Positions 14,397 to 28,530 of a stretch of DNA of 64,000 bases are shown piece by piece (the stretch's first letter is position 1; every line of letters begins with the position of its first letter). The stretch is taken from NCBI GenBank assembly GCA_903838675.1, contig CAILZI010000005.1, forward strand, positions 1 through 64,000, written 5' to 3'. Under the pieces are notes generated by a model. It was not told the origin of the DNA. It worked only from the letters and a program-made list of their open reading frames with translations, and did no database searches. The DNA comes from an uncultured Verrucomicrobiota bacterium. Lineage in GTDB: Bacteria > Verrucomicrobiota > Verrucomicrobiia > Verrucomicrobiales > Verrucomicrobiaceae. The translations under genes were made by a program, and so were the position numbers.

Positions 14397-15062
14397 TCAA
14401 GAGTCTTCCAAGCGATAGCCAATGCCCGGCTCGTTCACGATGCGCGGACCGGATTCACCGATTTTTTTGCGCAGGTGATTGATGTGAACGCGCAGGCCTT
14501 CGCTGGGATCGCTGGTCTGGCCCGCCCAGACCTGCTTCATGATCTGGTTCTGCGTGACAATGCGCCCCGCGTGCTCGGCCAGTACCTTGAGCAGTGCGAA
14601 CTCGGTGGGCGTGAGTTTGAGCGGTGCCTCATCGAGCGAAGCCTCGTGATGCAGCAGATCGAGCTTCAATTCACCGACAACAATCTCCGCACTCTGGCGT
14701 GTGAAGCGGCGGCGCTGAATGACCGTGAGGCGGGCGAGCAGTTCGGCGGTGCCAAAGGGTTTCGTCACGTAATCGTCCGCGCCATTTTCCAAGGCTTCGA
14801 CCTTGATGGTTTCCTTGTCGCGCACGCTGAGCACAAGCACGGGCACATCGCTCCATTCCCGCAGCCGCTTAAGCACTTCGAGGCCGTTCATGCCGGGCAG
14901 ACCGAGATCGAGCAGCACCACATCAGGGCGATGAAACGCGGCCTCCTGCAATCCGAGCTGACCTTCGGCGGCCTCACAGACCTCATAACCGCGCGACTCC
15001 AGCACCATGCGCAGCAGCCGGCGCATCTGCTGTTCGTCATCGATGATGAGGGCTTTGCTCAT
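14397..15062 (-). CDS. OmpR-family response regulator, KdpE-like (second copy)
   Basis: 221 residues: receiver domain with phosphoacceptor Asp52 (VVLLDLGLPGMNG), switch residues in VLVLSVRDKE and the conserved lysine in DDYVTKPFG, then an OmpR winged helix (about 125-221) ending GPRIVNEPGIGYRLE. That ending is typical of KdpE. It is about two-thirds identical by eye to the KdpE encoded at 16265-16927. It overlaps its partner kinase by four bases (ATGA). Likely binds promoters of K+ uptake genes together with, or in competition with, the operon KdpE. Confidence 0.88.
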   Translation of the reverse strand: MSKALIIDDEQQMRRLLRMVLESRGYEVCEAAEGQLGLQEAAFHRPDVVLLDLGLPGMNGLEVLKRLREWSDVPVLVLSVRDKETIKVEALENGADDYVTKPFGTAELLARLTVIQRRRFTRQSAEIVVGELKLDLLHHEASLDEAPLKLTPTEFALLKVLAEHAGRIVTQNQIMKQVWAGQTSDPSEGLRVHINHLRKKIGESGPRIVNEPGIGYRLEDS

Positions 15063-16168
15063 GCGGCGCTGCGAGTTTTCACCGGAAGGTGCAGGACGAA
15101 TTCCGCGCCGCCTTCTGGATGAGTGTGCGCTTCAATGTCACCTTTCATCGCCCGCATCAAGCCGCGTGCGATGGCGAGACCGAGGCCGGTGCCGCCGGTG
15201 GGTGAGTCGGGCGCACGGTAAAATTTTTCGAACAACTGGTCTTCAGACCCCAGCGGCAGACCGGGGCCGTGGTCGCGAACCCGGAGTTCCAGAGTATTGC
15301 CGGCCAGAGCGGCATGGATTTCGATGTCAGTGCCGGAAGGTGCATACCGCGTGGCATTGTGCAGCAGATTGCCGAGCACCTGGGCAAGCAGGCGGCTGTC
15401 GAGCCTGAGCAAGGGAAGATCCTCTGTGCCTGTGATGCGCAAAGTGTGTGCGGCGAGTTCCTGCTGGTTCGGTTTGGTGGCGGCATGCAGGACATCGCCG
15501 ATCTCGCACCAGTCGGGCTGAGGCTCCAGCGCTTCGGATTCTACCTGTGTCATTTCCAGAAAGCTCTCGACGATGCGCTGCAGGCGGCGGTTCGCGGTTT
15601 CGATCTCCTTGGCATAGGGGTTCCCCTGCCCCAGGCCGTCCAAAGCGGTGCGGATGATGGCGATGGGTGTTTTCAGCTCATGAGCAACGCTGTCCAACAG
15701 AGTGCGGTGCAGGCGCTCTGACTCTGCCAGCATTTCGGTGCGATGTTTCAGTTCCAGCAGGTGCTCACGCTCCTGATGATGCTGCGCCAGCGCCGCCTCG
15801 CGTGCGCGCAACCGCGTGATAAGATGCCCCATGCTCAGCGCCACGATGAAAAACAGGCTGAACATCACCATGTCCTGCGGCTTGTCGATGTTCAGCGTGA
15901 ACTGCGGCGGGATGAAAAAGTAATCCCACACCAGGGCGCTGACCACCGCCATCATCAGGACGGGTCCACGGTTCCACCTTGTGCCGGCGAGCACGATGGC
16001 CATCAGAAAGACCAGCGCGGCAAATAGATCGCCGGTATAGGGCAGCAGCACCCAGCAGGTGGAAGCCAGCACAAACACCAGTGTAAGCCCGCAGCTGTAC
16101 TGGCCCACCTCCGCCAGAGAAACCGGCGTGGGCGAGACTTGGACACTGGGGCTCCTGGCGTCAGACAT
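15059..16168 (-). CDS. Shortened KdpD-like sensor histidine kinase (second copy)
   Basis: 369 residues. It matches only the C-terminal half of KdpD: a DUF4118 region of four membrane helices (about residues 25-125, including DYFFIPPQFTLNIDKPQD), a HisKA domain with His163 in DSVAHELKTPIAII, and an HATPase domain ending GGTGLGLAIARGLM. The N-terminal KdpD ATP-binding domain, the universal-stress-type domain and the GAF-like region of the full KdpD are absent. It is cotranscribed with a KdpE-like regulator and has its own upstream site at 16239-16257 that resembles one in front of the kdp operon. Confidence 0.87.
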   Translation of the reverse strand: MSDARSPSVQVSPTPVSLAEVGQYSCGLTLVFVLASTCWVLLPYTGDLFAALVFLMAIVLAGTRWNRGPVLMMAVVSALVWDYFFIPPQFTLNIDKPQDMVMFSLFFIVALSMGHLITRLRAREAALAQHHQEREHLLELKHRTEMLAESERLHRTLLDSVAHELKTPIAIIRTALDGLGQGNPYAKEIETANRRLQRIVESFLEMTQVESEALEPQPDWCEIGDVLHAATKPNQQELAAHTLRITGTEDLPLLRLDSRLLAQVLGNLLHNATRYAPSGTDIEIHAALAGNTLELRVRDHGPGLPLGSEDQLFEKFYRAPDSPTGGTGLGLAIARGLMRAMKGDIEAHTHPEGGAEFVLHLPVKTRSAA

Positions 16169-16264: not shown

Positions 16265-16927
16265 TCATGTCTGCTCCAGCCGGTAGCCGATCCCGGGCTC
16301 GTTTTTGATCTCCAAAGTGGAGCCTTCGAGCTTTTTGCGAAGATGATTGGCATACACACGGAGGTAATGGCTTTGCTCCTCCGCCTGCGGTCCCCACACA
16401 GCACGGAGAAGCTGCTTCAGAGTGACGACTTTGCCGGCATAACGCACCAGTTGTGCGAGCATCGCATATTCAGTGGGAGTGAGTTTAAGCGGCTGGCTGC
16501 TCAAAGATGCTTCGTGATGCACCGGATCAAGTACAAGAGGACCAAACTGCAGATTGGCCGCGTCATGGGCGCTCTGCCGGCGCTGAATGGCGGTGAGCCG
16601 CGCGATGAGCTCCGCTGTGCTGAAAGGCTTTGAAACGTAATCGTCGGCTCCAGCGGTGAAGGCGGCGAGTTTGACGGCCTCCTGATCGCGCACACTGAGG
16701 ATGAGCACGGGAACGTTGCTCCATTCCCTCAGACGTTTCAGAACCTCGACCCCGTCCATGTCAGGCAGACCAAGATCCAGCAGAATGACATCGGGTTTAT
16801 GAAAGACAGCCTCTTGCAGCCCGATCTGGCCATTTTCCGCATCCCTCACGGTATAGCCTTTCGCTTCCAAGGCCATGCGCAGCAGGCGGCGGATCTGGAT
16901 TTCGTCGTCAATGATGAGGGCGTTCAT
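16265..16927 (-). CDS. kdpE: KdpE response regulator of the kdp operon
   Basis: 220 residues with a receiver domain (Asp51 in VILLDLGLPDMDG, lysine in DDYVSKPFS) and an OmpR-type winged helix ending STLEIKNEPGIGYRLE. KdpE, when phosphorylated by KdpD, activates kdp transcription at low K+ or high osmolarity. It overlaps kdpD by four bases and ends the long kdp operon; 96 bases separate it from the second kinase gene. Confidence 0.92.
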   Translation of the reverse strand: MNALIIDDEIQIRRLLRMALEAKGYTVRDAENGQIGLQEAVFHKPDVILLDLGLPDMDGVEVLKRLREWSNVPVLILSVRDQEAVKLAAFTAGADDYVSKPFSTAELIARLTAIQRRQSAHDAANLQFGPLVLDPVHHEASLSSQPLKLTPTEYAMLAQLVRYAGKVVTLKQLLRAVWGPQAEEQSHYLRVYANHLRKKLEGSTLEIKNEPGIGYRLEQT

Positions 16928-19584: not shown

Positions 19585-21015
19585 TTACTCACCGTTTTTG
19601 ATGCGTTTATTCTTTACCCGGGTCTGTGGGAACTGTTTCTTGTCCTTCTGATAATAGCAGATTTCCACCAGGGTGGGCCAGAGCTCCAAGGAAGCATGAA
19701 TCTGGCTGATGACGTCGTCAACGATGCGGCTGACGTTCTGCTGGAAGAAATCGGGCTCAAATCCATAAAAGACCTTGGCGAGGTTTTCCGCGAAGAGGTT
19801 CAACGTCTGGCGGCGCCCGGCATCCTTGGTCCTGGCGGCGGACTCAAGCACGCGAGCGTGAACGGCAGTGACCTTCTGCAGTATCTCCTGTGTGTCGTCG
19901 AGTGTTACCTCGCCTTTGTAACGGAACTTGATGCCGAGATCGTCGCGCTGATACACGGAATCCTTGATCTTCTTCTTGAGCAGGCTGCACAGCTCCTCGT
20001 TGAAGACCTCCATCGCCATGGGGTTGCGCATGTAGTTGCTCTTGGTGTGGCGCTGCACGGCATCTACATGCGCGGCGGCGATGCCGGACTGCTGGATCCA
20101 CAAACGGTAGATGTAATCTTCAAACCGCAGGCGTGTTGGGAAGAAAGGAGGGAGGCCCAGGCGGTTGTCATAGCCCGCGACGCCGCAGTCGATGCGCCAG
20201 TTCTTGTTGGTGACGACCGGCCGAAAATTCACCAGCACATACACGTCGTTCAGCGCATTGATGTCGGCCTGGGATTCATCGGTTAGAAACATCTCCACAT
20301 AATCCAGCGCGTCGATGTCATTGGTGCCGGTGCGGTAGGTCTGGGCGATCTTCACGATGGAATCACGCGAGACTTTTCCCGTTTGCAGATCCAGCGAATT
20401 TTCCCGTGAGAAATTGTTTGTCGTGTTGGTCTCCAGATCCATGGAGGTGTCCACCAGCAGCTCACCCTTTTCGTAGTTGGCGGGCATCTGTGCGACTTTT
20501 TTGCCGAGCGCCTCCTTGAATGCGGTGAGCAGGTCGAAGGACTTATGGACGTAGCCTTTGTCGGACGTGCGGTACAGCTTGCCCCGGCACACTTCACCCG
20601 GTGCGAGACTTTCCAGTCCGTCCTCGATCAAAGCGTCTGGCCGCATGTCATCATCGGAGCTGATGAGGTATTGCCCGAGCGTGTAGATGAGGGTGAAGTT
20701 GCGATTACCACCATAGCTGGGGCGGAAGAGGTTGCGCACCAGAGAGTCCAGCTTTTGCCCCCGCAGCTTGTGATTGAGGAAACTGATGAATTCCTCCTTC
20801 TCACGCGGACCCACGTAGATGAGTTCGTTGGCGGTCCGGGTCTGCTCCAGCAGCGAGTAATACTTCTGATGGTTCGCGAAACTGGAGTCGTCGAAGACCA
20901 TGATTTTGGCCGAATGGCCGTTGCGCCAGAAGTTGTCATCGTAAGCCTCGATGGTTTCTGGAACATCCCGCAATCGGTAGGTTGGAATCGTGAAGATGGT
21001 TTGAGGCTGGTTCAT
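19585..21015 (-). CDS. Glycosyltransferase-like protein embedded in the kdp operon
   Basis: 476 residues, no signal peptide or membrane segment. It begins with a GT-A-like Rossmann start (TIFTIPTYRLRDVPETIEAY, IMVFDDSS), has GGNRNFTLIYTLGQYLISSDDDMRP around residue 120 with a DDD cluster resembling a DxD metal/nucleotide-sugar motif, and RLRFEDYIYRLW around 310, where GT2 enzymes often place the catalytic ED. The C-terminal 130 residues are helical and charged. It lies between a KdpC-tail-like gene (33 bases) and kdpD (12 bases) in the same orientation, so it is very probably cotranscribed with kdp. I know no glycosyltransferase as a standard part of Kdp; the role is open. Confidence 0.65.
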   Translation of the reverse strand: MNQPQTIFTIPTYRLRDVPETIEAYDDNFWRNGHSAKIMVFDDSSFANHQKYYSLLEQTRTANELIYVGPREKEEFISFLNHKLRGQKLDSLVRNLFRPSYGGNRNFTLIYTLGQYLISSDDDMRPDALIEDGLESLAPGEVCRGKLYRTSDKGYVHKSFDLLTAFKEALGKKVAQMPANYEKGELLVDTSMDLETNTTNNFSRENSLDLQTGKVSRDSIVKIAQTYRTGTNDIDALDYVEMFLTDESQADINALNDVYVLVNFRPVVTNKNWRIDCGVAGYDNRLGLPPFFPTRLRFEDYIYRLWIQQSGIAAAHVDAVQRHTKSNYMRNPMAMEVFNEELCSLLKKKIKDSVYQRDDLGIKFRYKGEVTLDDTQEILQKVTAVHARVLESAARTKDAGRRQTLNLFAENLAKVFYGFEPDFFQQNVSRIVDDVISQIHASLELWPTLVEICYYQKDKKQFPQTRVKNKRIKNGE

Positions 21016-21048
21016 GGTTGGAGGGGGGGATTCGGATTCAGGTCGGAA

Positions 21049-21429
21049 TCATCGCAGCTTGTCGAGCGCGAGGTTGAGTTGCAGTGCGTTGACGTGGTCA
21101 ATGCAGACCACGTGCGCTGAGGCTGGAACGGTCAGCTTTACAATGAGCTGGCTGATTTGAGCAGCGGCCTCGGGCGCGAGCTTTCGCTCTTGGATAATCC
21201 GATTCATCTGCGTCCTGGCATTGGCCACGGAGATGCAGGGATAGGGCATTGAACCGCTCTTTTCGCAGATCCGAAAATATTCCGGTCCGGTGTATTTTTG
21301 CGCAAGCCTGGATTCCGCGAAATGGGCAATCAGCGCAAAGAAGAGCAGCAGCAGGCTGAGCGCGGTGAGGAAAACCGCCCAGACACGCAGCGGCACTCTG
21401 CCGGCCTTGGATGTTCGAGCGAAGGGCAT
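21049..21429 (-). CDS. KdpC C-terminal-like membrane-anchored protein
   Basis: 126 residues from the ATG at 21429; a TTG four codons upstream is an alternative start. One membrane helix (about residues 15-38) is followed by a soluble domain. From PYPCISVANARTQMNRI onward it lines up with the end of the neighbouring KdpC (LDPHISVKNAELQAARV), and both proteins close almost identically: VNALQLNLALDKLR here and VNVLELNLALDAAK in KdpC. The middle part of KdpC, about 90 residues including GSSLLGQ and the catalytic-chaperone region, is missing. Two cysteines not present in KdpC (ICEKSG, YPCISV) occur. It sits 48 bases after kdpC. Probably an accessory or regulatory paralogue formed by duplication and internal loss. 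Confidence 0.7.
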   Translation of the reverse strand: MPFARTSKAGRVPLRVWAVFLTALSLLLLFFALIAHFAESRLAQKYTGPEYFRICEKSGSMPYPCISVANARTQMNRIIQERKLAPEAAAQISQLIVKLTVPASAHVVCIDHVNALQLNLALDKLR

Positions 21430-21489
21430 GACTTTGAGCAATGCGACGGCGCTCCGGCTTTATGACCGGAGGCCGTCTGTGAGACTGGC

Positions 21490-22077
21490 TTACTTGGCAG
21501 CATCGAGCGCCAGGTTCAGTTCGAGCACATTCACACCGGCATCACCCAGGATGCCGAGGTCGGGCTTGGTTGTGCTGGCGGCGATGAGTTCTTTGACCTT
21601 CTCGACGCCAAGGCCACGGGCTTTCGCAACGCGGGCGGCTTGCAGTTCGGCGTTCTTCACGCTGATGTGCGGATCGAGGCCGCTGCCGGAGGTGGTGACA
21701 GCATCGGCGGGCACTGCGGCGGTGGCAGCAAGGCCTTCGGTGGTGCGATAAGCGGCGATGCGGTCTTTGATCGCATCGTTCAGCTTTTGCGAGGTGGGGC
21801 CGAGATTGCTGCCGCTGGAACTGGCGCCATCATAGCCGAATGCACCCGCAGCCGAGGGACGGGTGTGGAAGTATTTTTCACCGGCGAAGACCTGGCCGAG
21901 CAAGCTTGAGCCGCGCACGGTGCCGTCCTTGTCCACGATGAGGCTGCCATCAGCCTTGCGCTTGAACGCAACCTGGGAAACACCCCAGACAGCCACCGGA
22001 TACAAACCACAAAGAACTACAGCGAAGACGAGGGTGGAGACGACGGCTGCACGGATATCAGAGAAGAGAGCTTTCAT
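21490..22077 (-). CDS. kdpC: KdpC subunit of the K+-transporting ATPase
   Basis: 195 residues from the ATG at 22077, which begins the usual KdpC N-terminus (MKALFSDIRAAVVSTLVFAV) four bases after kdpB; the longer open frame upstream overlaps kdpB and is not supported. One membrane helix, then the periplasmic domain with GSSLLGQVFAGEKYFHTRPS, the family hallmark, and the C-terminal DPHISVKNAELQAARVAKAR. KdpC stabilises the KdpA-KdpB assembly and raises ATP affinity. Confidence 0.94.
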   Translation of the reverse strand: MKALFSDIRAAVVSTLVFAVVLCGLYPVAVWGVSQVAFKRKADGSLIVDKDGTVRGSSLLGQVFAGEKYFHTRPSAAGAFGYDGASSSGSNLGPTSQKLNDAIKDRIAAYRTTEGLAATAAVPADAVTTSGSGLDPHISVKNAELQAARVAKARGLGVEKVKELIAASTTKPDLGILGDAGVNVLELNLALDAAK

Positions 22078-26546: not shown

Positions 26547-26584
26547 GGACGTTTCTCCCACCCTGATAGGATGTGGAGGCGTCC
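26547..26584 (-). terminator. Possible terminator hairpin at the end of kup
   Basis: Arms GGACG and CGTCC enclose a second pairing of CTCCCA with TGTGGAG. The hairpin reaches the first base of the kup stop codon and no clear T-run follows on the minus strand, so termination function is uncertain. Confidence 0.3.
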
Positions 26585-28530
26585 TAAATCTCCACCTGCT
26601 GACCCAGCTCAATCACCCGGCCCAGAGGAATCTGGAAGTAGGTCGCTGGCTGCTGCGCCAGTTTGCTCGCGAATGAGAAGAGGTGCTCGCGCCACCTCAC
26701 CATACCTGGTTTCGGGCTTGGAACGATAATTTCGCGGCCCAGGAAGAACGTTGACTTCTCCGCCGTGACTTCAAGACCCTGGTTGGAGCATTGGCGCAAG
26801 AGGCGCGGCACATCGGGCTTTTGCATGAAACCAAAGCGCCCGGTCACGCGCCAGAAACCATCAGCAAGCTTTTCAACATCCACGCGTCGGCTCGGCGGCA
26901 CATAAGGCTCGTCCTCGGTGACCAAGGTCATGAATATGACACGCTCGTGGATGGCACGGTAATGTTTCAAACTGTGCAGCAGGGCGATGGGGGCGCGTCC
27001 GCTGGTGCTCGACATGAAAATGGCCGTGCCAGGCACAATGACTGGCGGGCTGCGCTTGAGGCTGTCGCAGAGCATTTCCTGACTGAGCGAGCTTTTTTCC
27101 ATCGAGGCACGCACCAGGCGGCGTCCCGTGGCCCAGGTCGTCATGAGCGTGAAGAGGATGATACCGACCACGATCGGGAACCAGCCACCGTCGAAAAACT
27201 TCACCAGATTAGCGCTGAGAAAGGCGATTTCAATTACGCCGAACAGCAGACACAGCGGCAGAGTCTTGAGCAGCGACCATTGCCATAGATGACGAGCGGC
27301 AAAATAGAACAGGAAGGTGGTAATGAGCATGGTCATCGTCACGGCCACACCGTAGGCCGCAGCCAGATTCGTCGAGGTACGGAAGGCCAGAACCAAAGCG
27401 AGGCAGGCCAGCATGAGCAGCCAGTTCACCAGCGGGATGTAAATCTGACCCTGGGCATGTTCCGAGGTGTGCCGAATGCTGAGACGCGGCAGGTACCCCA
27501 GTTGCACCGCACTCAGCGTGAGTGAGTAGGTGCCGGTGATGAGCGCCTGCGAGGCAATCACCGTCGCAGCAGTGGCCAGCAGCACCATCGGCAAGGCGGC
27601 CCAGCCGGGAGTCATTTGAAAGAAAGGTGCATGTGCCAGTTCCGGCTGCTTCATGAGCAACGCCCCCTGCCCCAAATAATTCAAGGCCAGTGCCGGCAGC
27701 ACGAGTATGAACCAGCCACGCCGGATCGGCCCTGCGCCAAAATGGCCCATATCGGCATATAGCGCCTCACCGCCCGTGACCGCCAGAAACACACTCCCGA
27801 GAATCACAAACGATTTGTGGCCGCCCGTGGTCAGAAAGTTCCAGCCGTGCAAGGGATTGAACGCCGCGAGGATTTCCGGCCCATTCACCAGATGCATCAT
27901 GCCAAGCCCCGCCAGCGAGACGAACCACAGGCCCGTTATCGGGCCAAAAAAGCGCCCCATTCGCGCCGTGCCGAGGAATTGCACTGAAAAGAGCCCGATG
28001 AGAATCACGATGGTGATGCCCATGATGAGCCACTCCCGCTGATCCTCCCACAGCAACGCCGCCGCTGCATCCGCCGGCGGAGTACCGAGCAGTCCGCCAT
28101 CTTTCAGACCCTCGATGGCGCTGAGAACGGAAATAGCGGGAGTGATGATGCCATCACCAAACAACAATGCCGCACCAAACAGACCTAGCAGGACGATCAC
28201 AACGCGACGTTTCAACGCCTCCGACATGCCATGCGAAGCCAGCGCCATGAGTGAAAGCACTCCGCCCTCTCCCTTGTTGTCCGCTCGCAGGACGAAGACG
28301 AGGTACTTGATGCAGACGAGAATGATCAACGCCCACAGCACCAGCGATATGACGCCGAGCAAATTATCATGGGTCGCAGCCACGTGGTGCGGGCTCAGCG
28401 GGCTGAAGCACTCCTTCAGGGTATAGATGGGGCTTGTACCAATGTCGCCAAAGACCACTCCCAAAGCCGCGATGACCAGGGTGGTGGAGGAGTGCTTATG
28501 GAGACCATGCTTGTCTGTCGTGTCGTTCAT
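26584..28530 (-). CDS. kup: Kup low-affinity K+ uptake protein
   Basis: 648 residues with about twelve membrane helices and a C-terminal cytoplasmic region. Family marks: LGVVFGDIGTSPIYTLKECF, LRADNKGEGGVLSLMALASH and ALYADMGHFGAGPIRRGWF. Kup is a proton-coupled K+ importer that works at moderate K+. Standing next to kdp on the same strand and carrying an upstream site like that of kdp, it is probably co-regulated with the high-affinity system. Confidence 0.95.
   Translation of the reverse strand: MNDTTDKHGLHKHSSTTLVIAALGVVFGDIGTSPIYTLKECFSPLSPHHVAATHDNLLGVISLVLWALIILVCIKYLVFVLRADNKGEGGVLSLMALASHGMSEALKRRVVIVLLGLFGAALLFGDGIITPAISVLSAIEGLKDGGLLGTPPADAAAALLWEDQREWLIMGITIVILIGLFSVQFLGTARMGRFFGPITGLWFVSLAGLGMMHLVNGPEILAAFNPLHGWNFLTTGGHKSFVILGSVFLAVTGGEALYADMGHFGAGPIRRGWFILVLPALALNYLGQGALLMKQPELAHAPFFQMTPGWAALPMVLLATAATVIASQALITGTYSLTLSAVQLGYLPRLSIRHTSEHAQGQIYIPLVNWLLMLACLALVLAFRTSTNLAAAYGVAVTMTMLITTFLFYFAARHLWQWSLLKTLPLCLLFGVIEIAFLSANLVKFFDGGWFPIVVGIILFTLMTTWATGRRLVRASMEKSSLSQEMLCDSLKRSPPVIVPGTAIFMSSTSGRAPIALLHSLKHYRAIHERVIFMTLVTEDEPYVPPSRRVDVEKLADGFWRVTGRFGFMQKPDVPRLLRQCSNQGLEVTAEKSTFFLGREIIVPSPKPGMVRWREHLFSFASKLAQQPATYFQIPLGRVIELGQQVEI

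Follow-up and report, generated by a model that had tools for sequence, protein, structure and literature searches.

Organization of the kdp locus

The window analyzed here, a 64,000-nucleotide stretch of the genome of an uncultured Verrucomicrobiota bacterium that is billed as a soil-type organism, contains a kdp locus with the order kdpA-kdpB-kdpC-C2-GTx-kdpD-kdpE on the minus strand, as determined by tblastn and Pfam/NCBIfam searches (Table 1). Kdp is the textbook K+ starvation system, the known outputs of which are the pump and its control. Compared with the KdpFABC operon (kdpFABC-DE), the locus has the same kdpA, kdpB, kdpC, kdpD and kdpE genes, arranged and oriented as usual, but adds, between kdpC and kdpD, two intact open reading frames (ORFs), namely, a miniature KdpC (C2) and a putative GT-A-type enzyme (GTx).

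Table 1. Genes of the extended kdp locus in the window
Gene	Product	Coordinates	Strand	Basis
kdpA	K+ channel-like subunit, 603 aa	24138..25949	-	tblastn homologs labeled KdpA in all kdp loci examined
kdpB	P-type ATPase subunit, 673 aa	22082..24103	-	homologs in other kdp loci
kdpC	full-length subunit, 195 aa from ATG at 22077	21490..22077	-	PF02669, 229.6 bits, whole profile
C2	predicted mini-KdpC, 126 aa: one membrane helix and the KdpC C-terminal subdomain, without the middle	21049..21429	-	PF02669 match, hydropathy, AF2 model, position after kdpC
GTx	putative soluble GT-A-type sugar-nucleotide enzyme, 476 aa, outside named families	19585..21015	-	conserved motifs, 40 homologous loci, GT2 profile match
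kdpD	sensor kinase, 882 aa	16924..19572	-	homologs in other kdp loci
kdpE	response regulator	16265..16927	-	homologs in other kdp loci

Both extra ORFs lie where the first-pass annotation had reported them, and the gaps of 33 bases (C2-GTx) and 12 bases (GTx-kdpD) that it gave are correct; between kdpC and C2, however, there are 60 bases when C2 is read from the ATG at 21429, and the 48 bases originally given apply only to an upstream TTG at 21441, an alternative start that would yield a C2 protein of 130 aa. For kdpC, a longer upstream ORF exists and is not needed. This layout supports the predicted membership of both extra genes in the kdp operon, and the 33- and 12-base gaps suggest that GTx is co-transcribed with the kdp genes. 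No riboswitch or other RNA family was detected in the window, nor in any of six GTx loci.

Further genes lie around the operon. Downstream of kdpE is a second, smaller kinase/response regulator pair (14397-16168, minus strand; 369 aa and 221 aa), in which the kinase resembles KdpD without the N-terminal part and the regulator resembles KdpE; this pair is conserved beside kdp in the close relatives L078, L082, L083 and L089. A gene for a Kup-type K+ transporter, named by eye (26584-28530, minus strand), adjoins kdpA and is kept in this position in L078, L081, L082 and L089.

C2, a miniature paralog of KdpC

C2 is an additional copy beside the full KdpC. A profile search, named beforehand as a check that could overturn the proposed kinship, yielded a significant match of C2 residues 55-124 to positions 116-182 of the KdpC profile PF02669 (37.9 bits, E 2e-9), well in excess of the curated Pfam cut-off of 24.1 bits. 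The score bears out the earlier description of the last 65 residues as KdpC-like, and the confinement of the match to these profile positions, with a gap in the alignment, agrees with the claim that the middle of KdpC is missing. Specifically, C2 keeps the N-terminal membrane helix, the LLxxxFTGxxYF motif and the C-terminal subdomain ending in VNxLxLNLALD, whereas the stretch that runs from RPSAAG via GSNLGPT to SGSGLD is missing. Alignment with full KdpC proteins, in which GSNLGPT and most of SGSGLDPHIS have no equivalent in C2, sets it apart from full-length KdpC. Against the NCBIfam KdpC equivalog, the cut-offs of which are set for full-length KdpC, C2 scores 34.9 bits, short of the required 152.55. 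Because the middle is absent and the equivalog cut-offs are missed, we file C2 as a KdpC paralog rather than as a KdpC subunit.

Hydropathy analysis indicates a single N-terminal membrane helix (peak 2.68, residues 16-34), and the AF2 model (pLDDT 77.5) consists of a helix at residues 14-45 followed by the tail. The model leads to the same family: the top seven Foldseek matches of the model are all KdpC, and VIA-align comparison with KdpC chains gives Z scores of 7.8-9.5, although the alignment used for folding contained KdpC rows, so that the structure and sequence matches are not entirely independent. The alignment with 7bh1_C (Z 9.2, 78 residues, rmsd 2.5 Å) is in accord with the fold of the C-terminal subdomain. 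Judged from the profile match and the model together, C2 is a real KdpC paralog.

In the family to which the window belongs, 31 of the 68 genomes carry kdpC, and in 10 of these 31, C2 follows kdpC directly. Identity to the window copy of C2 drops to 34-42% (tblastn) where KdpB stays at 89%, and in the closest relative with C2 (L081), KdpA, KdpB, KdpC and KdpD are 95-97% identical to their counterparts compared with 75% for C2. In comparisons with the window copies, omega is 0.22-0.48 for C2 and 0.04-0.22 for KdpC; with values below 1 despite the rapid divergence, C2 evolves fast, under relaxed but purifying selection. The faster evolution of C2 relative to KdpC, along with its absence from close relatives such as L089, which has neither C2 nor GTx, could betray a decaying kdpC duplicate without a function. 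However, the reading frame is kept open in 10 genomes, omega is below 1 in all computable pairs, and the LNLALD tail and the GPxYF segment (as well as ERxL) are invariant in eight C2 copies, so we consider decay unlikely and favor a role for C2 as an accessory or competing subunit.

Under this favored reading, C2 would have arisen when kdpC was duplicated and one copy lost the central part of its extracytoplasmic domain. Anchored by its one helix, the protein would probably bind KdpFABC where the C-terminal subdomain of KdpC sits, most likely acting there as an accessory or competing pump subunit. A structural study has called the part played by KdpC itself uncertain (PMC6255902), and mini-KdpC is a naturally occurring deletion with which the function of KdpC can be probed. 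KdpC also varies elsewhere: in a Spartobacteria metagenome-assembled genome (MAG), KdpC contains an insertion of about 70 aa after GSNLGPTSKK (L004:7571-8365), and in genome G962 (that of L021), KdpC is split by an insertion within one open frame.

GTx, a divergent GT-A-like protein

No family in Pfam or NCBIfam was matched by GTx, and its homolog in the annotated Trichormus variabilis plasmid is listed as a 'hypothetical protein'. The motifs DDSS, SSDDDMRP and RFEDYIYRLW, from which the first-pass annotation had derived a glycosyltransferase-like identity, are all present, and DDDMRP and RFED are invariant in 22-23 aligned homologs; among homologs of 64-85% identity, the invariant positions comprise D121-D123, R125, R144-G145, C277-G278, R297, E299-D300 and H323. 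The common core of GT-A enzymes conserves a DxD motif, an xED motif and a C-terminal His (PMC7185993). The invariant D121-D122-D123 corresponds to the metal-binding DxD and, by sequence position, E299-D300 and H323 to xED and the C-terminal His. A remote relative from one genome of the cyanobacterial phylum (L106, 40 bits) retains DDD, RIED and His and exceeds the cut-off of the Pfam GT2 family PF00535 (24.8 against 23.3 bits), whereas GTx itself has no PF00535 match.

In profile-profile comparison with GT2 proteins of the same genome, the GTx profile reached a probability of 36%, and 90% when L106 was included, compared with at most 16% for unrelated Kdp profiles used as controls; the alignment is colinear over IPTY, FDDSS, GGNRN and DDDMRP. 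Thus, GTx shares with GT2-type GT-A glycosyltransferases the colinear IPTY, DDSS, GGNRN and DDDxxP segments followed by xED and the C-terminal His, but differs from them in being unrecognized by PF00535, in its long C-terminal helical part and in belonging to no named family. Because DDD, xED and the C-terminal His are in place and a remote relative scores above the GT2 cut-off, GTx is likely a divergent GT-A enzyme, and the original glycosyltransferase-like label can be upheld in this GT-A-like sense. Hydropathy analysis of GTx revealed no hydrophobic or membrane helix, which suggests a soluble, cytosolic protein.

Structure-based searches yielded a lead only. Confidence in the AF2 model of GTx is low (pLDDT 52), Foldseek returned no match to this model with an E-value below 0.001, and no credible match was obtained in a PDB sequence search with GTx. 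In VIA-align comparisons of the same low-confidence model, the first five places are taken by MtdL, and mannosyl-3-phosphoglycerate synthase is among the other GT-A enzymes that come next, with Z scores of 5.5 at most. A wider search for distant GTx relatives retrieved only two proteins, both from one cyanobacterial-phylum genome (L106:9051-10625 and L134:1270-2766); the former gene is followed by one that, by eye only, resembles a flagellar hook protein gene.

Distribution of GTx and its association with kdp

A pattern scan of one genome per species, covering 84,980 species, identified 40 GTx loci. The proteins are 60-85% identical across Verrucomicrobiota, Cyanobacteriota and Pseudomonadota, and the GTx tree consists of three phylum-level clades, namely, Verrucomicrobiota, Cyanobacteriota and a pseudomonadotal group around Acidisoma. 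The distribution is sporadic: GTx is present in 2 of 388 Verrucomicrobiota genomes and in 3 of 200 genomes of the Acidisoma order, with three close matches among 292 Cyanobacteriota genomes. It is absent from all other searched genomes of the window's genus, and L081 has C2 followed by kdpD without GTx; with GTx in only one searched genome of that genus, the gene is evidently dispensable. Where present, GTx is under strong purifying selection (omega 0.03-0.16). Given that omega is below 1 and that homologs occupy the same place in other genomes, both C2 and GTx are more than chance ORFs.

GTx does not stand out from the locus in third-position G+C content (GC3 75.5), and at synonymous sites it is about as far from Verrucomicrobium (1.4-1.7) as kdpC is (1.5-1.8), both values being near saturation. 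A recent transfer of GTx into the window genome is therefore not favored, and an ancestral gene that was lost in most of the genus appears to fit better, with the reservation that the divergence is near saturation. A phage origin was also considered and rejected, as there was no match in phages or viral contigs.

In 30 of the 40 loci, kdpA, kdpB or kdpC lies within approximately 4.2 kb of GTx. After clustering at 90% identity, 7 of the 11 GTx clusters have a kdp-linked member; in the other four, there is no kdp gene within the stretch seen, some of these contigs being short. The arrangements vary from in-operon to co-directional to divergent. The C2-GTx-kdpD order of the window recurs in Verrucomicrobium (L002, L003 and L079), so that the gene pair, the absence of which from related kdp loci had been set as grounds for dismissal, is found there. 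In the Spartobacteria MAG (L004), GTx comes after kdpC and a helix-turn-helix gene; in Nostoc and relatives, it is located downstream of kdpABC, frequently accompanied by a TrkA_C protein, by a second KdpA or a pentapeptide protein, and by an OprB porin; and in Acidisoma (L034) and Pseudanabaena (L029), it is divergent from kdpA. Plasmid A of Trichormus variabilis carries both GTx and kdp. In two cyanobacterial loci without kdp, some of the same neighbors persist: TrkA_C-type and c9 genes are still upstream of GTx in Drouetiella (L039), and the Ser/Thr kinase family is still near GTx in Phormidium (L017).

All 20 GTx genomes tested carry kdpC, many of them being close relatives and hence not independent; the background frequency of kdpC is 63 of 120 genomes for the Nostoc order and 31 of 68 for the family of the window. 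The tie between GTx and kdp suggested by the window recurs in three phyla. That 7 of the 11 clusters are kdp-linked, that the arrangements differ and that kdpC accompanies GTx in 20 of 20 genomes favors a functional tie between GTx and potassium starvation.

In two of the Verrucomicrobium loci, the gap between C2 and GTx, about 155 bases long, contains a G+C-rich inverted repeat (L002:8840-9000 and L003:8865-9000), which could terminate or attenuate the kdp transcript ahead of GTx; because of this repeat, read-through into GTx is not assured in Verrucomicrobium.

Functional inferences

The literature searched names no KdpC paralog or kdp-linked glycosyltransferase. What sets this kdp operon apart is an unnamed enzyme that recurs, together with a mini-KdpC. 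In the scenario that we propose, the locus would be a kdp operon extended by two accessory genes. GTx would be a soluble, metal-dependent GT-A enzyme that is made when K+ is scarce, thanks to its place within the presumed kdp transcription unit, and that draws on a sugar nucleotide to synthesize or alter a small glycoside of the cytosol, which would replace K+ as an osmolyte. The explanation as a whole, with an extended operon, C2 as a pump accessory and GTx as a GT-A enzyme for K+ scarcity, seems to us evenly poised between right and wrong. Organic solutes can replace K+ as osmolytes, which makes an osmolyte glycoside the most economical link to K+ limitation; this step taken alone, drawn from genomic context and general background on osmolytes, is rather doubtful.

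Several other roles for GTx have to be weighed. The protein could be an NDP-sugar pyranose/furanose mutase or a self-glycosylating GT75-like protein, comparable to plant RGP/UAM and bacterial MtdL, that would feed furanose sugars into an envelope or extracellular glycan when K+ is short. MtdL accounts for each of the top five structural matches of the GTx model (Z 5.2-5.5, with alignments of up to 279 residues), and GTx shares with the GT75 mutases (MtdL, UDP-arabinopyranose mutase; PF03214) DDD and, in its predicted architecture, a GT-A domain with a helix domain at the C-terminal end. Besides DDD and this helix domain, GT75 has catalytic Arg and His residues (PMC9937993) that resemble R297-D300 and H323 of GTx by eye. 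Yet MtdL is the best-ranked neighbor of a poor model, for which a Z of about 5.5 is within the noise, and xED and the C-terminal His are common to GT-A enzymes generally (PMC7185993). GT75 membership is unsupported by profiles: GTx has no PF03214 match in hmmscan and an hhalign probability of 1.5%, and the weak GTx-GT75 HMM alignments miss the GT75-specific sites. (The plant RGP sequence, used as a probe only, was verified by a PF03214 match of 597.8 bits and a PDB match.) The autoglycosylated Arg of GT75 has no certain counterpart in GTx, the invariant R144 and R228 being candidates. In sum, the mutase or self-glycosylation reading, including its envelope glycan, is improbable.

Alternatively, GTx might glycosylate the pump, its regulators or the neighboring porin, and thereby control K+ uptake post-translationally. 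In several lineages, the gene has pump genes as neighbors, along with genes for a Ser/Thr kinase, for a protein with a TrkA_C domain and for an OprB porin, and KdpD is known to exert post-translational control over KdpFABC (PMC11018627). However, no acceptor site is known, the neighbors of GTx vary among lineages, and KdpC and C2 are extracytoplasmic whereas GTx looks cytosolic; we regard this option as quite improbable. Finally, the scarcity of GTx among Verrucomicrobiota and Cyanobacteriota, together with several copies unlinked to kdp, could point to a mere passenger in or near kdp loci without a functional link. The linkage recurs, however, in three phylum-level clades in which gene order and orientation differ, all GTx genomes tested have kdpC, and purifying selection on GTx is strong; all of this speaks against a passenger, which is accordingly a very unlikely solution.

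A conserved enzyme that is repeatedly linked to kdp would constitute a second, metabolic output of Kdp, and cells may couple potassium shortage to sugar chemistry. In its broadest form, this proposal holds that the Kdp response to potassium starvation has, in three phyla, an unnamed family of GT-A enzymes as a dedicated output through which scarce K+ is coupled to sugar-nucleotide chemistry, and that the mini-KdpC of Verrucomicrobiaceae is an alternative or regulatory pump subunit; we advance it tentatively, with the balance somewhat against it. With GTx and kdp on the same plasmid, Trichormus variabilis is an organism in which the metabolic output is testable.

Apart from these considerations, the GTx loci of other lineages contain several further genes. 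A second full-length KdpA (PF03814, 704.6 bits) is encoded just before GTx in some Nostoc kdp loci (L005:6710-8425, L009, L033 and L018), and an apparent KdpA fragment is fused to pentapeptide repeats at L006:7828-8340. Small TrkA_C-type proteins, scoring 26.8 bits, just below the cut-off of 27 (L005:5785-6183 and L039:8034-8320), recur between kdpC and GTx and also adjoin GTx in L039, a locus with no visible kdp gene. Members of a Ser/Thr protein kinase family likewise recur near cyanobacterial GTx genes, with or without kdp (L042:8548-9918 and L017:6201-7499).
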